Below, in pieces: positions 41,337 to 48,792 of a stretch of 64,000 bases of DNA (position 1 is the first letter of the stretch; each line of letters starts with the position of its first letter). The notes under the pieces were generated by a model. It was not told where the DNA came from. It made no database searches and saw only the letters and a list, made by a program, of their open reading frames with translations. Source of the DNA: Sphingomonas daechungensis (lineage in GTDB: Bacteria > Pseudomonadota > Alphaproteobacteria > Sphingomonadales > Sphingomonadaceae). Position numbers and translations under genes: made by a program. The stretch spans positions 1 to 64,000 of the forward strand of contig NZ_CP060781.1 of the NCBI RefSeq assembly GCF_014489495.1, read 5' to 3'.

Positions 41337-41424
41337 AGCAGTCCAGCGTCGCTGACGGGGCATGTAGCACGGCCATTCGCGCGTCTACCCGTTACGACTG
41401 GCAAGTTCATGGGAGTTGCGTACG

Positions 41425-41835
41425 ATGATGATGGTTAGAACAGAGCTCAGAGCCAGTCCCATCCACGGAATAGGCGTCTTTCTTTCCGAGCACGTTCGAA
41501 AGGGGCAGCTTATCTGGCGGTTCGATAGTCGCATCGATCAAGTCTTCTCCGATGCCGAGCTGAGCGAATTACCGACCATTCTCCATGAGTTTCTGCGGAC
41601 CTATTCCACGCTGCACGGCGACCTGCGGATTTGGGTGCTGTGCGGGGACAATGGTCGGCACTTCAACCACTCTGACTACCCGAACACGACGTCCCTCGGG
41701 ATTGCATTCGGCGATGACGTCGCGGCGGAGGATCTTCCGGCCGGAACCGAACTGACCAGCGATTATCGGACGATCTGCGACGCCATGAGGCTCGAAGGAA
41801 CGGATTTCATCCAGCCCCAATCGGCCAATTGCTGA
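41425..41835 (+). CDS. SET-domain protein
   Basis: The SET fold is short but complete: ASPIHGIGVFLSEHVRKGQL (G-x-G-V-F), IWRFDSRIDQVFSD, HFNHSDYPNTTSLGIAFGD (N-H-S-x-x-P-N) and LPAGTELTSDYRT (E-L-T-x-D-Y). These are the S-adenosylmethionine and substrate-binding motifs of SET lysine methyltransferases. About 136 residues, normal for stand-alone bacterial SET proteins. The start is ATG 41425 (triple ATG), with TTG 41416 in frame. Convergent with the ATP-grasp gene. Protein substrate unknown. Confidence 0.8.
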   Translation: MMMVRTELRASPIHGIGVFLSEHVRKGQLIWRFDSRIDQVFSDAELSELPTILHEFLRTYSTLHGDLRIWVLCGDNGRHFNHSDYPNTTSLGIAFGDDVAAEDLPAGTELTSDYRTICDAMRLEGTDFIQPQSANC

Positions 41836-43069
41836 AGCTGCCAACGGGCAAGCTTATTGCCGATATCCTGCCGGTAACGCATGTTGGGGGTGACAACCTT
41901 GCGGACGCGGTCATAGGCAGCGCGCTGCGCCTGATCGACGGTTGAGCCTGTGCCGGTCACGACCGCCGTCCATCCATAGAGTCCCGACGTCACCAATTGC
42001 TCCTTATCGATACCAGCTTCTCCTAGATGCAGGTGCTCATCGTCCAAATCATCGACCACGATCGGCAACCCAATCGCAGAATCGACTTCTGCACGCGACA
42101 GCGGAAACGGCGGCGTACTGATCACGACGCCCACTGAAAATCCTGGCCTCGTCGGGAGGCAGCTCAACGAGCGGTTGCACAATCCGTGAAGCAGATCGCC
42201 CCAGTTAATGCCTTGCAGAGGTTCGAGCACTGCAAAACCAGGATAGCCGAAGCGACACGTGAACTCGAGCGGCCATATTCCTTGCTCATTGATGATGAGG
42301 TTCAGGTTCACCCAGCCCACGTGGCTCGCACTACGCAGTCCGCTTTCGAGCTTTGCCAGCGTCGCGTTGAAGATCGCATCGGACCACTCGAAGGTTGCGA
42401 CCGTGCCCATTTCGCCCGTCAGTTCGCCGAGATCGCCCGGAAAGAAATGCTTGTGCTCCCAGTCGAGACAAGCTGGCCGAAGGAAATTAGTGCCGTTGAA
42501 GAAAGCCCCGACGCCTACCTCAATACCTTCAACATAATCCATCAGGATGAACGGGGCGACGGGTGGCTTCACGCGAAGCAAGGCGCTTACGTCTCGACCG
42601 TCGGGAAGCACGCCGACAAAAGTGTCTCCGGCCGATGCGCTCATCTTCAAAACGCAGCGTCGGGGCGTATCGCCAAATCCGAGAAAGCTTCTTCGGCGTC
42701 GGCGAACTCGGTCGTGCTTGCCGTATTCAATCCGAGTTCAGCGAGCTGCCGCTGGGCAGCGGCACGGTCGTTCTCCAGGCGGTCGCCGAAAGCGCTGCCG
42801 CCTACAACATTAAATCCCGCGCCGCGGAGTTTATCCTGAAGTTCGCCGAAGCCGATCGCTTCGAAGACGATGATCCCGTCGTCCCCGGCTTCGCGAATCC
42901 AGCCCAGCTCTGAACGCCAATCCGATGACCTGGGCACCAGTCCCGCCATGGTTCCACTGGCGAGGGGATTGCTGATGGAAGCACGGACCTGATGACCTTC
43001 GGCAAGCAGCCGCCGATACATGGAGCCGAGGTCACAGGTTTCGGTGATACCAAGTACGCGCACTATCAT
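41763..43069 (-). CDS. ATP-grasp ligase, phosphoribosylglycinamide-synthetase-like (one frameshift)
   Basis: From ATG 43069 (MIVRVLGITETCDLGSMYRR) a preATP-grasp domain runs to GGSAFGDRLENDRAAAQRQL; after a frame change near 42660 come KMSASAGDTFVGVLPDGRDV, FILMDYVEGIEVGVGAFFNG, a lysine/acidic region and INEQGIWPLEFTCRFGYPGF, the metal-binding E...R-F-G-x-P ending of PurD-like enzymes. Such ligases form an amide from a carboxylate and an amine. The gene opposes the diiron-protein and methyltransferase genes, 46 bp away. The 3' end overlaps the SET gene by 73 bp. Substrate unknown. Confidence 0.75.
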
Positions 43070-43115
43070 ATGCTAGCGCACGGAACTGACTGATACGCAA
43101 CGATGTTTTGGCGCC

Positions 43116-44002
43116 ATGGCAAGCGTCTTCAAGTGGCGTGGTGAAGAGGCCGGCGTCTTCACTGATAATGTGCAGCAACGGCTTGCGCATTGGAACCGGC
43201 ATCGGCTTGCGCCGAGGCTTCCGGACAACGATTGGGAATCCGCATTCGCCTCCGATCATGAAACACTCGTCCTTGAGAGCGCGCTCTTGAGTATGCTTCG
43301 TAAAGAGGTCGCTGCAACCGCCGCGATCGCTCCAAACGATGCGGACGGCTTTGTCCGCTGGTTCGAGGCACTGAAGGAAGTTGGCCCGGGCCAAGGCGAT
43401 CCTCTGTTCCCTTGGCTCGAGAAGACGGCGACACTGGACGAGATGCGCTGGTACCTGCTCCAAGAGGCGGCAGGCGAAGCAGGCTTCGATGATCTTACGG
43501 CTCTGACCCAGATCCGATTGCCGACGCGTATCAAGCTGGAGCTCGCCCGCAACTACTGGGACGAAATGGGTCGCGGCAACGAGAAGGGCATGCACGGGCC
43601 GATGCTTGAGCGGCTGAGCGTCGCCCTCGGCATTCGCCCGACGATCGAGCAGACCGTCTGGGAGAGCCTCGCGCTCGCGAACGCAATGACCGCCATGGCC
43701 ACGCGCCGCGACTTCGCATGGCATGCACTGGGAGCTCTTGGCGTGATCGAACTCACTGCCCGGACCGATCGGCTGCGGTCGCTTCGGGGCTGCGCCGGCT
43801 CGGGATCGCTCCCAAAACGCGGACATATTTCGACCTTCACGCCACGCTCGATGTGAAGCACAGCCTGGCGTGGAACGCCGAAGCGATCGGGCCGGCGGTA
43901 GCCGAGGACCCGGCGCGTGCTCGGGCGATTGCCGAAGGCGCACTCATCCGCCTGACCTGTGGCGCGCGATGCTTCGACCGTTATCGTAGCGAACTGTGGT
44001 GA
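43116..44002 (+). CDS. Iron-containing redox protein, haem-oxygenase-like diiron (HDO) type (one frameshift)
   Basis: ATG 43116 (MASVFKWRGEEAGVFTDNVQ). The mostly helical product carries DEMRWYLLQEAAGEAGFDDL and LELARNYWDEMGRGNEKGMH, followed by LGALGVIELTARTDR; after a frame change near 43785 comes GLRRLGIAPKTRTYFDLHAT and DVKHSLAWNAEAIGP. The repeated E-x-x/H...D-x-x-x-E...D/H pattern with D-L-H-A at the end fits the haem-oxygenase-like diiron oxidase group (TENA/UndA/SznF-like fold). Such enzymes do N-oxygenation, desaturation or C-C cleavage in natural-product paths. About 295 residues. Confidence 0.75.
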
Positions 44003-44915
44003 AGGCTGACGCAGCGCTCGTCGAGCTGTTGCACTTCCTTCGACTATACGAATACCGATTCACGACGGTGACACCGACAACCCATTCGCGGGTGCTAGCG
44101 CGAGGAGAAGTTTCCGATACCGGTCTTCGTGACATTTTCGGATGGAACAGGCCCTTTTCGAGCGACCAGATCGAGCCTGTTCTGCTCGGGCTGCTCGGTC
44201 GGGCAGGTGCCATCTCTACCGGTGAGAATGACAAGTTCATCAGTCGCGTTCGCGTGGCGAGCCTGGGCGACGATCTGCTCGTTCATTCTGGCTTTCCTAC
44301 GAACGATCGCGACGCCGTCTTCTTTGGTCCGGATAGCTATCGGTTCGTGAACTTCGTTAAACGGGAGGTGCCGAGCCTTTCGAACGTGCGGAGCATCGTG
44401 GACATGGGTGCGGGCAATGGCGCAGGGGGCATTGCCGTGGCCCGACTGCTCGACGGCGCCAGGATCACGCTCGTTGACGTCAATGCTGTCGCACTCGCGA
44501 TGGCGGCCACGAATGCTGCGGCGGCCGGCGTTGACGCGAATCTGTTGGAAGCGGATTGCATTCCTGACAACGTGGACCTTGTCATGGCCAATCCGCCGTA
44601 CATCGTCGACGACAAACGGCGCCAATACCGGCACGGCGGTGAGATGTTCGGAGGAGCTGTCGCGCTGGGTTGGGTGCGCCAGGCGCTCGAGAAGCTGTCG
44701 CCCGCGGGAGTGATGTTGCTGTACACCGGCGTCGCTTTTGTGGATGGGCGATCTCCGTTGCTTGCGGAAATTGCACAAGAATGCAGGGCAGCGAGGGCCG
44801 ACGTGACGCTCACTGAACTGGACCCCGATGTTTTCGGGAGGAGTTAACGAAGGAGCCCTACCGAGAAGTTGAGCGGATTGCCGCGTTCGGGATCAAAATC
44901 ATTCGGTCAGCTTAG
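43996..44915 (+). CDS. Class I SAM-dependent methyltransferase with N-P-P-Y motif (one frameshift)
   Basis: The start at 43996 overlaps the end of the diiron-protein gene. The N-terminal 120 residues are family-specific (SRVLARGEVSDTGLRDIFGW). The Rossmann part has VRSIVDMGAGNGAGGIAVAR, ITLVDVNAVALAMAATNAAA, ANLLEADCIPDNVDLVMANP and NPPYIVDDKRRQYRHGGEMF. N-P-P-Y marks methyl transfer to a planar nitrogen (amide, amine or base), as in HemK/PrmC. A frame change near 44836 restores the end (REVERIAAFGIKIIRS). Together with the diiron protein and ATP-grasp ligase it suggests a small biosynthetic pathway. Confidence 0.75.
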
Positions 44916-45568: not shown

Positions 45569-45909
45569 ATGCGCGCGGAAAACGCTGTCGAGGCGCTCGC
45601 CGCGCTCGCGCAGGAACATCGGCTCGCTCTGTTCCGCTTGCTCGTCCAGGCCGGAGACAAGGGCATGGCGGCGGGCGCGATCGCCGATGCACTTGGCGTC
45701 CCAAACAGCTCGCTGTCGTTCCATCTCGCGCAGCTCCGGAATGCCGGACTGATCCTGCAGGAGCGGCAGCACCGCTCGCTCATCTACCGCGCCAACTATC
45801 CGGCGATGAACAAGCTCGTCGGGTATCTCATGGAAAACTGCTGTGCCGGTGCCGACTGCGGCGCGGATACAGCCTGCGAAATTCCCGCCAGGAAAGGAAA
45901 TCCGCTTGA
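45569..45909 (+). CDS. arsR: ArsR family arsenic-responsive repressor
   Basis: The winged helix reads AVEALAALAQEHRLALFRLL, GAIADALGVPNSSLSFHLAQ, LRNAGLILQERQHRSLIYR, followed by a Cys-rich tail (MENCCAGADCGADTAC) that would hold As(III). The N-terminal C-x-C of classical ArsR is absent; the C-terminal Cys cluster is the type seen in several proteobacterial ArsR. The natural stop is probably TGA 45907, overlapping the arsI TTG start, which needs one frame change; the given frame otherwise runs to 46042. It represses this operon. Confidence 0.85.
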
Positions 45910-46349
45910 AGCGCCTGCACGTCCACGTCGGGGTCGAGAACCTCGCCCACTCCATGAACTTCTACTCGACGTTGTTCGGATCCGAACCGACCGTCGTGAA
46001 GGACGATTACGCCAAGTGGATGCTCGAAGATCCGCGCGTTAACTTCGCCATCTCCGCGGGCAATCATGCTCGCAAGGGCATCGAGCATCTCGGCATCCAG
46101 GTAGAAAGCCCAGACGAACTCTCCGAAGTCTACGGACGCCTGAAGGCCGCCGACCGGCCAGTCCTCGAAGAAGGCCAGACGACCTGTTGCTACGCCAAGT
46201 CCGAGAAAAGCTGGATCAGCGATCCGGACGGCGTCGTCTGGGAAGCCTTTTTCACCAACGGGGAAGCGACGACCTACGGCGACAGCCCCGCGCTCGACAC
46301 GCTGAGGCCTTGCGAAGCTAAGTGCTGCGCACCGAGGGCAGCGGCATGA
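45906..46349 (+). CDS. arsI: ArsI/CadI-type VOC-fold metalloid resistance protein (organoarsenical C-As lyase type)
   Basis: I chose TTG 45906 (read as M-K-R-L-H-V-H-V) with an AGGAAA site; the family normally starts MKRLHVHVSV. The glyoxalase-fold product reads VGVENLAHSMNFYSTLFGSE, VKDDYAKWMLEDPRVNFAIS, GIEHLGIQVESPDELSEVY and GQTTCCYAKSEKSWISDPDG. The vicinal cysteines in T-T-C-C-Y are the trivalent-organoarsenical site of ArsI lyases. A C-terminal CEAKCC adds a possible As(III) site. The stop overlaps arsC (ATGA). Confidence 0.85.
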   Translation: MKRLHVHVGVENLAHSMNFYSTLFGSEPTVVKDDYAKWMLEDPRVNFAISAGNHARKGIEHLGIQVESPDELSEVYGRLKAADRPVLEEGQTTCCYAKSEKSWISDPDGVVWEAFFTNGEATTYGDSPALDTLRPCEAKCCAPRAAA

Positions 46350-46849
46350 CCCGTCCCTACAACGTGCTGTTCCTGTGCACCGGGAACTCCGCCCGCTCGA
46401 TCCTCGCCGAAGCGATCCTCAACAAGGACGGCGCAGGACGCTTCAACGCCTTTTCGGCCGGCAGCTTTCCCAAGGGCCAGGTCCATGCCGAGGCGCTCAA
46501 GCTCCTGGACGAACTCGGCTATCCGTCGGAGGGCTTCCGCTCGAAAAGCTGGGACGAGTTCGCCGCCGATGGCGCACCGCTGCTCGATTTCGTCTTCACC
46601 GTTTGCGACAATGCAGCGGGCGAAACCTGTCCATTCTGGCCGGGCCAGCCGATGACGGCGCATTGGGGCATCGAAGACCCAGCCGCAGTCCAGGGCGAGC
46701 GCCAGCCGCAAGCCTTCCGCAATGCCTACTATGCGCTGCAAAGACGGATCGGGTTGTTCCTGTCGTTGCCCTTCGAAAGCAGCGACGAACTGAGCCTTCA
46801 GACGAGGCTGCGGGAGATAGGGCGAACCGGCGACCAGGATGCCGCCTGA
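46346..46849 (+). CDS. arsC: Arsenate reductase, low-molecular-weight phosphatase (thioredoxin) type
   Basis: The P-loop reads VLFLCTGNSARSILAEAIL (C-x-x-G-N-S-x-R), with SAGSFPKGQVHAEALKLLDE and the second Cys pair region DFVFTVCDNAAGETCPFWPG. These are the nucleophile and relay cysteines of thioredoxin-coupled ArsC. About 167 residues, intact. It reduces arsenate to arsenite, which leaves through AqpS encoded next. ATG 46346 overlaps the arsI stop. Confidence 0.9.
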   Translation: MTRPYNVLFLCTGNSARSILAEAILNKDGAGRFNAFSAGSFPKGQVHAEALKLLDELGYPSEGFRSKSWDEFAADGAPLLDFVFTVCDNAAGETCPFWPGQPMTAHWGIEDPAAVQGERQPQAFRNAYYALQRRIGLFLSLPFESSDELSLQTRLREIGRTGDQDAA

Positions 46850-47515
46850 CGCTCCGCCGCTCGGGCGGCGCATTGCGGCGGAAGGTATAGGCTCGTTCCT
46901 CCTGTTCGCGTGCGTGATCGGTTCGGGCATCATGGCCGCGAACCTATCCGGCGGAAACGACGCAATCGCCTTGCTCGGAAACACGCTTGCAACCGGCGCG
47001 ATTTTATTCGTGCTGATCACCATGCTTGGGCCGATTTCCGGAGCGCATATGAACCCGGCGGTCAGCCTAGTCGCCGCTTCGCGGGCGATCTGCGGTGGAC
47101 CGATGCAGGAGCCTACATTCTCGCGCAAATGGCGTTCGGAATCCTTGGCGCCTGGGCGGCGCATTTGATGTTCGATCTTCCGACGCTCCAGCTGTCGGTG
47201 AAGGCCCGAACCGGCCTCGGCCAATGGACCGGCGAGGCGGTAGCCACCTTCGGCTTGATCTTGACCATTCTCGGCACCGTGAAGCACCGCCCGCAGTGGG
47301 TCCCCGCCACCGTCGCGCTCTACATCACCGCGGCTTACTGGTTCACTTCGTCAACTAGCTTTGCGAATCCCGCGATTACCGTCGCTCGAAGCCTGTCCGA
47401 TACGTTTGCCGGAATTGCTCCTGCCGATGTTCCGCTGTTCATCGTTGCTCAGCTGATTGGAGCGATGGCGGCTGCATTGACTGCGAAGTGGCTCTTCTCT
47501 GACAGGGCGGCCTAG
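46839..47515 (+). CDS. aqpS: Aquaglyceroporin (AqpS-like) arsenite channel (one frameshift)
   Basis: ATG 46839 lies inside the end of arsC (11-nt overlap). The MIP-family product has six membrane helices and both half-helix motifs: ISGAHMNPAVSLVAA and TSFANPAITVARSLSDTFAG (N-P-A twice). A frame change near 47075 splits it. In ars operons without arsB or acr3, AqpS gives downhill efflux of arsenite formed by ArsC, as established in Sinorhizobium meliloti. The stop codon (TAG 47513-47515) abuts or forms the start of a repeat. Confidence 0.85.
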
Positions 47516-47606: not shown

Positions 47607-48679
47607 TCAGGCCGCGTGTGTGACTCGTGATTCAAACGTGGCCTTAGTGACCGTGACGGCTAGTCCCCCATGGATGACGTTTCAGATACCTGAGCGTTCA
47701 GCTGTTTCGCTAACGCAGCCACTAACGCCGTGCCAAGCCCGGTTGATGCACTTGGTTCGTTTGTCTCGCTTCTCCCGATACCGTTGTCCGCCACAGTGAG
47801 CTTCCAATCCGACTTTGCCATCTCGAAGGTCACTCGGATTCGGGCGGACGAATTGGGCAAAGGAAATGCATATTTGACTGCATTGATGATCAGTTCGGTG
47901 ACAATCAAGCCGATGCTTACCGCGTGGCTCGTTTGGAGCACGCCAGGGTCAGCACGGACAGTGATGTCGATGTCCTGACGGGGGTCCACCATGGACGCGG
48001 CAAGGCCCGAGCTGAGCTTCGCAAGGTATGGACCAATCTCAATTTGCTCGATGCCATCAGACGCATGCAAGTGGCCCTGCACCGCCGCCACGGACATTAC
48101 CCTCTGATGGGCAGCACGGAGCTCATTCTTGGTTTCTTCTGAGGTCACTGCTCCGGCCTTCAACAGCAAGATGCTGGCAATGATCTGCAAGCTGTTTGCA
48201 ATGCGGTGCCGCATCTCGCGAAGAAGAGTCCGTTGCTGCTCTAACAGCTCCTCCGTATGCTCCAGTAGTTTCTGTTTCTCCTGTTCGGCGATCCGACGTT
48301 CGGTGATGTCCTTGATCGCCACCAGTACCATCCTGCCCGACCCGTCGCCGTCACGGATCGGAAGAGCATTTAGACATAAGGTTCGCCGCCCGACCTTGCC
48401 GAAATCGCGCTCGAACTCGAAGCTTTCGATAGTCCCGCGATCGTCGACAACCGCGGCTAGCAGCTGTCGCAGGCCCGGTATGTCCCATGCGCCACCCGAA
48501 AGCTCGAACAACGAATTGCCGTGCACAGCGGCCGGAACCTCGCCGAAGACCTCGTAGAAGCAACGACTAGCCGCGAGAAGACGCAACGTGTCATCCAAGA
48601 CCAGGAAGGGTTCGGGCAGAGTGTCGACGATTGCCAGCGCCAAGGCTTGCGCTTGCTCCCTATCGTCTAACTCTTTCAT
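47607..48679 (-). CDS. PAS-HWE/HisKA_2 sensor histidine kinase (one frameshift at the end)
   Basis: ATG 48679 (MKELDDREQAQALALAIVDT). A PAS domain (LPEPFLVLDDTLRLLAASRC to MVLVAIKDITER) precedes a phosphoacceptor region (LLREMRHRIANSLQIIASIL, with the M-R-H-R-I/V-x-N-x-L-Q His box) and an ATPase domain (IVTELIINAVKYAFP, DNGIGRS, GLGTALV). A frame change near 47665 restores the usual tail (LAVTVTKATFESRV). This HWE/HisKA_2 class is typical of the alphaproteobacterial general stress and light networks. It follows a receiver protein gene on the same strand. Confidence 0.85.
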
Positions 48680-48792
48680 CTTGGTAGCTCCAATCGGGCG
48701 GGAGCTTCGCATCTCTCTGTTGCCGGCACGCGATTCGCCTGTCCGGTAATGAGATGGTTATACTCTACTTGGGATAACGATCCCACTACCGA

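Follow-up and report, generated by a model that had tools for sequence, protein, structure and literature searches.

The locus

We analysed a stretch of 64,000 nucleotides of Sphingomonas daechungensis (RefSeq assembly GCF_014489495.1, contig NZ_CP060781.1, positions 1 to 64,000), hereafter the window, and followed up four neighbouring genes in it, hereafter the cassette. From left to right they encode a SET-domain protein (+), a PurD-like ATP-grasp ligase (-), a haem-oxygenase-like diiron (HDO) protein (+) and a class I methyltransferase with an N-P-P-Y (NPPY) motif (+). An earlier note on this DNA had singled out the last three as a candidate biosynthetic cluster. The features are as follows.

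41416..41835, + strand: SET-domain protein of 139 aa (Pfam SET, 1.2e-5), an accessory member of the cassette
41763..43069, - strand: PurD-like ATP-grasp ligase in two frames (42647-43069, then 41763-42650), recognised by Pfam, tblastn and a solved-structure profile
43082..43107, + strand: EcfG-type promoter-like site, GGAAC-N18-GTT, inside the 46-bp gap and 8 bp upstream of the HDO start
43116..44002, + strand: HDO protein in two frames, with a break near 43757; the nearest N-oxygenase is HrmI
43996..44915, + strand: NPPY class I methyltransferase with an N-terminal helical region (Pfam MTS, 4.3e-12)

The ATP-grasp gene (start 43069) and the HDO gene (start 43116) lie on opposite strands, separated by 46 bp. 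The methyltransferase begins with a GTG codon at 43996, overlapping the HDO stop at 44000-44002. The SET gene is convergent with the ATP-grasp gene and overlaps its 3′ end by 73 bp. The earlier note had described the same arrangement and our coordinates agree with it, except at the end of the methyltransferase. Position 44915, which it gave, is the expected gene end, but the stop codon found there (44913-44915, read by eye) belongs to a different frame from that of the recovered open reading frame (ORF, 43996-44847).

Co-occurrence and gene order

Relatives were surveyed in samples from the genus (37 genomes, own included), the family (249 genomes) and the class (318 genomes, own included). 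Matches were accepted at E <= 1e-30 in the family sample, and at E <= 1e-50 (HDO) and E <= 1e-40 (methyltransferase) in the class sample. The earlier note had suggested that the ATP-grasp, HDO and methyltransferase genes form a short path, and had named co-occurrence in other genomes as the way to check it. Co-occurrence is indeed conserved. In the family sample the HDO gene was found in 38 genomes and the methyltransferase in 27, with both in 23 where 4 would be expected (p 1.2e-18); four genomes had the methyltransferase without HDO. Counted by genus, 15 were shared against 4.6 expected (p 1e-8). The two genes lay within 5 kb of each other in only 2 of the 23 genomes possessing both, so linkage alone cannot explain their co-occurrence. 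Within the genus, HDO was detected in 14 genomes and the methyltransferase (E < 1e-60) in 13, all of them among those 14 (G007 has HDO only). Across the class, the two genes were found in exactly the same five genomes, own included. The gene set is far beyond chance, and HDO and the methyltransferase form one functional unit, the core of the cassette.

The ATP-grasp gene (>50% identity) was present in four genus genomes (G000, G004, G005 and G008). Strong SET matches were found in the same four, all of which carry both core genes; a weak SET match was also seen in G025 (E 6e-5). In the family sample ATP-grasp was found in 4 of the 249 genomes, all among the 23 with the core pair. The ATP-grasp and SET genes are a sphingomonad add-on; in the genus and family samples it was never seen without both core genes. 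The SET gene, which the earlier note mentioned as converging on the ATP-grasp gene, is a member of the set and not a bystander, and since it accompanies ATP-grasp we count the unit as four genes.

Full sets in sphingomonads occur in different orders: that of the window and L009, that of L026 and L037, and that of L176 (L009 and L144 are apparently the same contig and were counted once). ATP-grasp was found near HDO in the window and in L009, L026, L037, L069, L176, L209, L210 and L211. In G004 the SET, ATP-grasp and methyltransferase genes are together and HDO is elsewhere, while in G008 the core pair is apart from ATP-grasp and SET. Three of the four distant class-sample genomes with the pair also have the ATP-grasp gene (L209, L210 and L211). 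ATP-grasp, methyltransferase, HDO and SET stand in a row on one strand in L211, an apparent operon. In L209 HDO, SET and ATP-grasp share a strand and the methyltransferase is divergent. L210 has HDO, ATP-grasp and methyltransferase genes, with no SET recognised in its ORF list, and in L208 the contig ends just past the core pair. Since the genes keep company when unlinked, and the set is kept together while its layout is reshuffled, the view that they form one short pathway is well supported.

Directly upstream of the row in L211 is a DUF892 gene (2013-2552), of a family that we take to be stress-associated. Methyltransferase-HDO pairs were also found on Komagataeibacter plasmids (L180 and L187). 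Their position near insertion sequence (IS) elements suggests horizontal transfer.

The gene caller, based on G+C content by codon position, is crude; it keeps some false ORFs and misses some true genes, including HDO in L053 and L210. We set ORF clusters 1, 2, 4 and 5 aside as shadow ORFs: the examples listed for them overlap HDO or methyltransferase genes in another frame or strand. The minus-strand ORF L009:6179-6655, considered as a SET gene, was a false ORF.

Cassette proteins

Both pieces of the window HDO match PF14518 (2.8e-24 and 2.7e-14). The six-ligand motif, for which the earlier note had proposed an alignment, is present: E127, E160, H170, H252, D256 and H259 (L009 numbering; E127 chosen by alignment rather than from metal data) are invariant in 22 of 22 relatives. 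These three histidines and three carboxylates align with the same residues of HrmI, and the window ORFs contain all six, spread over two frames. By analogy, the protein is predicted to bind two irons and activate O2.

HrmI is the closest of the solved HDOs both by sequence and by fold. Against solved structures the family profile matched HrmI at 2.1e-43, followed near 1e-6 by 3bjd, a Pseudomonas protein, and then FlcD, with BesC and SznF near 0.01. A structural model of the L009 HDO (predicted local distance difference test, pLDDT, 86) matched HrmI with a TM-score of 0.82 and a Z score of 32.7, at 24% identity over 298 residues. The next folds were RohS (Z 26.2) and SznF (23.0), then 3bjd, FlcD, BesC and CADD, all near 22. 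HrmI and SznF are described as N-oxygenases in PMC13108848, and RohS is one according to PDB titles. We infer that the cassette HDO would act on nitrogen, like these three best-placed characterised enzymes, though a shared fold does not fix the reaction.

In the methyltransferase, N211, P212 and P213 and the residues D148, G150, G152 and G154 of the S-adenosylmethionine (SAM) motif are invariant in 15 of 15 relatives, with Y214 nearly so. The family thus possesses an NPPY/F motif and SAM motif I, and its members share a conserved C-terminal block. The best folds for the L009 model (pLDDT 88) were AerE (E 5.1e-13, TM 0.63, 18% identity), gentamicin GenN and HEMK2. The enzyme is accordingly modelled with a fold like that of N-methyltransferases.

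The second ATP-grasp piece matches Pfam GARS_A (4.5e-9) and GARS_C (1.6e-9), both over cut-off; in L009 and L026 GARS_A is over its cut-off and GARS_C under it. PurD enzymes are the nearest solved structures of the family profile (2.5e-34). The proteins nevertheless fall well short of the PurD model TIGR00877 (cut-off 288), with 75.2 bits for the larger window piece and 84.6 for the intact L009 relative. Relatives on plasmids of Roseomonas (47% identical) and Halarchaeum (33%) had no HDO, cassette-type methyltransferase or SET gene annotated nearby, so the ATP-grasp family has other partners. The Roseomonas homologue (L182, 7004-8278) adjoins a type III polyketide synthase, a methyltransferase and a monooxygenase.

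The window SET protein matches PF00856 and contains the catalytic-type patterns NHSxxPN and ELTxDY. The SET proteins of L209 and L211 match Pfam SET at about 1e-15 and are only 22-23% identical to it. Given this divergence, the cassette may have exchanged its SET gene or acquired one on two occasions.

Promoter motif

The motif GGAAC-N17-20-GTT is that of EcfG in Sphingomonas melonis, as given in PMC6599016. A stricter consensus of our own, GGAAC-N15-18-CGTT, was used first, and the published motif served as the main test. Once near-duplicate upstream regions had been removed, 44 of 84 HDO genes had it in the 100 bp before their start. For other called genes in the HDO loci the figure was 32 of 1494, and for called genes of control regions 1 of 257, some false ORFs being counted among these called genes. 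Six altered versions of the motif matched 0, 1, 4, 0, 1 and 1 of the 84 HDO genes. One of these, CCAAG (4/84), reached p 0.004, and p values near this level consequently mean little in the motif test. Of the 22 HDO matches to our stricter motif, 14 are placed 25-40 bp upstream of the called start. The EcfG sigma-factor motif is a feature of HDO promoters, and on its strength the cassette appears to be switched on by the general stress regulator.

The single site in the window would be weak evidence alone, since the 64 kb contain 15 sites of a relaxed form of the motif, both strands counted. In L041, the divergent methyltransferase and HDO genes each have an EcfG motif. The relaxed form was also checked at 24 chosen gene starts, including those of the distant loci L208-L211, and sites were found before the methyltransferase in L211, SET in L209 and HDO in L210, with none before the remaining cassette genes of these four loci. 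The word "oxygenase" does not occur in the main text of PMC6599016 or PMC7083833, where many targets are listed as "hypothetical protein".

Neighbouring genes

Neighbours were surveyed in 115 loci, some of them partly alike (L074/L076, L062/L077 and L030/L034), and in 20 control regions. A sodium:dicarboxylate (SDF) symporter was found at most two genes away in 12 of the loci and cphA in 6, with neither in any control region. Clusters of cphA with both core genes were seen in L185 (1532-9271), L074, L076, L062 and L077, and in L157 cphA is near the methyltransferase only. Both cyanophycin synthetase and cyanophycinase exceed curated cut-offs in L074. On the Sphingobium yanoikuyae plasmid pKN1, cphA, an isoaspartyl peptidase, cyanophycinase, the methyltransferase, HDO and a dicarboxylate symporter follow one another on one strand. 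In G216, which has no cassette-type HDO, the methyltransferase is about 0.1 kb from cphA.

Genes of the arginine-deiminase/DDAH family adjoin the methyltransferase in L158 and L159, and in the L158 protein a C-terminal cysteine region that aligns with DDAH is retained. A Legionella sainthelensi plasmid (L181, 5095-6924) carries an arginine-deiminase/DDAH-family domain fused to the NPPY methyltransferase; HDO comes next, with LigD and Ku genes downstream. These linked neighbours give a hint of arginine or aspartate chemistry.

Elsewhere in the window, positions 45569-47515 contain an ArsR-type regulator (a profile match) followed by genes read by eye as VOC-type, low-molecular-weight arsenate-reductase-like and aquaporin, which together look like an arsenic-resistance operon. 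A sensor kinase with PAS and HisKA_2-type domains was read by eye at 47660-48712. Kinases of this type feed the general stress response in the class Alphaproteobacteria.

Proposed pathway and alternatives

We tentatively read the four genes as a mobile biosynthetic cassette belonging to the general stress response of Alphaproteobacteria, one in which HDO oxidises, the methyltransferase methylates and the ATP-grasp enzyme ligates a basic amino acid; this reading is nearly as plausible to us as its opposite. Under stress, EcfG would turn on HDO, as the promoter motif suggests. HDO might then oxidise a side-chain nitrogen of a basic amino acid of the arginine or lysine type, by analogy with the action of HrmI on lysine, and the methyltransferase would methylate a nitrogen in that molecule. 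Through activation of a carboxylate, the ATP-grasp enzyme would couple the modified amino acid to a second one or to an amine. The SET protein could add another methyl group or modify a cassette enzyme, and the product would be a protective or signalling metabolite. That this product is an undescribed general-stress metabolite of Alphaproteobacteria, an N-oxygenated and N-methylated arginine or lysine capped by the ATP-grasp enzyme and produced by an EcfG-controlled set of four genes whose core is found on plasmids as well, is possible but rather doubtful. The earlier note had envisaged a modified amino acid or nucleotide. An amino acid fits, whereas nothing was found for a nucleotide beyond the resemblance to PurD, and a nucleotide product was set aside.

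Several observations weigh against this reading. At E <= 1e-30, 15 of the 38 HDO genomes of the family sample lack the methyltransferase, and it is absent from the flanks examined in 65 of 80 HDO loci. After HrmI, the nearest HDOs by sequence are 3bjd and FlcD and not RohS or SznF. The published motif is upstream of none of 9 ATP-grasp and only 4 of 43 methyltransferase genes, and no relaxed site precedes ATP-grasp or HDO in L211 and L209. EcfG control of the whole set therefore rests on the sphingomonad HDO genes, the other cassette promoters being mostly without the motif. In the source genome cphA was not detected at the cut-off applied, and no arginine enzyme was noted next to the cassette; the arginine link thus comes from other bacteria. 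Among the nine family genomes with cphA, four have the methyltransferase (p 0.01) and three HDO (p 0.14). The arginine step was given modest weight, since cphA is missing from the source genome and from 20 of the 23 pair-bearing genomes. The frame breaks described below could also mean that the cassette genes are dead in the source strain.

Gene content around the cassette points in the same direction. Pfam families were counted for 277 of 423 de-duplicated neighbours within three genes and for 143 of 251 control genes, taking only the 25 commonest of 165, 181 and 198 families per set. Among these 25, no stress family stood out in the 277 neighbours when set against the 143 controls. Neighbours included OsmC (2 of 127), Mn-catalase (1 of 127) and catalase (1 of 150), none of which was among the 25 listed for the control. 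A stress island recognisable from neighbouring genes was thus rejected for want of enrichment, the signal coming instead from the promoter motif.

One alternative is a route like that of streptozotocin, with the methyltransferase making N-omega-methylarginine and HDO hydroxylating the guanidine nitrogens to yield an N-nitroso or NO-releasing product. In the streptozotocin route StzE makes N-omega-methylarginine. The pairing of a methyltransferase with an N-oxygenase-like HDO would suit such chemistry, as would the presence of SznF among the nearest folds and the arginine-deiminase/DDAH-family genes beside or fused to the methyltransferase. SznF acts on N-omega-methyl-L-arginine according to PMC13108848. 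However, SznF needs a cupin domain for its rearrangement, and Pfam found only PF14518 in the window HDO and in the L009 and L181 proteins (305 aa). HrmI, which has an amine substrate, is also clearly nearer than SznF. We consider this route unlikely.

Another alternative is catabolic: in stressed or starving cells, HDO and the methyltransferase may serve to release nitrogen from arginine or cyanophycin. The one-strand row from cphA to the symporter on pKN1 is what such a role might look like, and cphA is also near in L062, L074, L076, L077 and L157, with EcfG-like sites before it in L157 and L185. Against this, cphA is confined to 9 of the 249 family genomes, 3 of them among the 23 that carry both core genes; cyanophycin was dropped as the main theme for this scarcity and its weak association. 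We would also expect neither a methyltransferase nor an ATP-consuming ligase in such a route. On balance it is improbable.

The cassette might instead act at the level of proteins, the PrmC-like and SET methyltransferases modifying proteins and HDO limiting oxidants directly, in the manner of DtpC-KatE. SET proteins are mostly protein lysine methyltransferases, and the solved SET matches were of this kind. The methyltransferase profile matches HemK/PrmC first by sequence, but the window ORF, which lacks the last residues, scores 59 bits against the TIGR03534 HemK/PrmC cut-off of 199.1. KatE-type catalases were found in 6 of the 115 loci, adjacent in two (L041 and L048). According to PMC13232832, DtpC is an HDO encoded in one operon with katE and helps dried cells to survive, a likeness by description. 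Under this alternative the ATP-grasp ligase has no clear place and the nearest HDOs act on small molecules; we give it little credence.

The genes could also be decaying pseudogenes in the source strain. ATP-grasp, HDO and methyltransferase are each frame-broken in the window, a feature missed by the earlier note, near 42650, 43757 and 44837 respectively (the HDO pieces are 43116-43856 and 43718-44002), and the ATP-grasp gene matches its relatives in two frames (tblastn). All three are single uninterrupted frames in the relatives examined, with one HDO match in G259 containing an internal stop. Single stops reported in four ATP-grasp matches are located at gene ends, as full-length ORFs are present in L140, L166, L173 and L176. 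Long ORFs are, however, scarce throughout the window: those of at least 400 codons cover 0-11% of four 15-kb pieces, whereas in 20 control regions taken from relatives they cover 53% on average and never less than 28%. At least one further gene, the aquaporin-like gene at 46839-47515, is also split over two frames (by eye), and the source genome has a completeness rating of only 86.6% in two contigs. Because of this window-wide shortage and the low completeness, the breaks are probably due to assembly or sequencing error, and decay of the cassette is very doubtful. The assembly seems rich in indel errors, and any split gene in this genome therefore needs care.

That the genes are chance neighbours with unrelated housekeeping roles is hardly credible: many sphingomonad HDO copies do have unrelated neighbours, but for HDO and the methyltransferase the co-occurrence statistics contradict it.

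If the product is indeed such a general-stress metabolite, HDO chemistry would provide a second, independent route of stress protection beside DtpC. What is known of HDO enzymes comes mainly from pathways to antibiotics and toxins, and a conserved HDO cassette behind general-stress promoters in common bacteria of soil, plants and water would link this oxygen chemistry to everyday survival. The cassette points to a small molecule in bacteria in which ecfG mutants already exist, and four genes are few enough for rebuilding in vitro. Its regulation and conservation are of more interest than the parts themselves.

Comparison with known systems

The HDO lysine N-oxygenases HrmI and BelK (PMC13108848) are the closest comparison, the cassette HDO being nearest to HrmI by sequence and fold, with all six ligands aligned. 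Their gene setting differs from that of the cassette, and no peptide-synthetase gene was among the listed features of the related loci examined. With the streptozotocin enzymes StzE and SznF, the cassette shares a methyltransferase and an HDO N-oxygenase, with an arginine-related context in some relatives; unlike SznF, its HDO has no cupin domain. DtpC-KatE of Acinetobacter likewise combines a stress-tied HDO with a KatE-type catalase, such as is found near some of our loci, and in the account available (PMC13232832) no methyltransferase, ATP-grasp or SET protein is mentioned. AerE, the aeronamide N-methyltransferase that is the best fold match of the cassette methyltransferase, acts on a peptide.

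The earlier note could name no known cluster with exactly this set, which was too strong as to kind. In PMC13185094, 1,447 HDO sequences are reported near ATP-grasp ligases, in at least 25 cluster types, and clusters of HDO with ATP-grasp are thus already known as a kind. The mangotoxin cluster mboABCDEF, from the same source, shares an HDO beside an ATP-grasp ligase with the cassette, a likeness of gene content. No paper on the full combination was found in the open-access literature searched, a scope too narrow to call the set unpublished. Set against the mangotoxin cluster, the cassette has a ligase of the PurD-like type, accompanied by an NPPY methyltransferase and a SET protein. These features, together with general-stress promoters, are what the cassette adds to the known kind.

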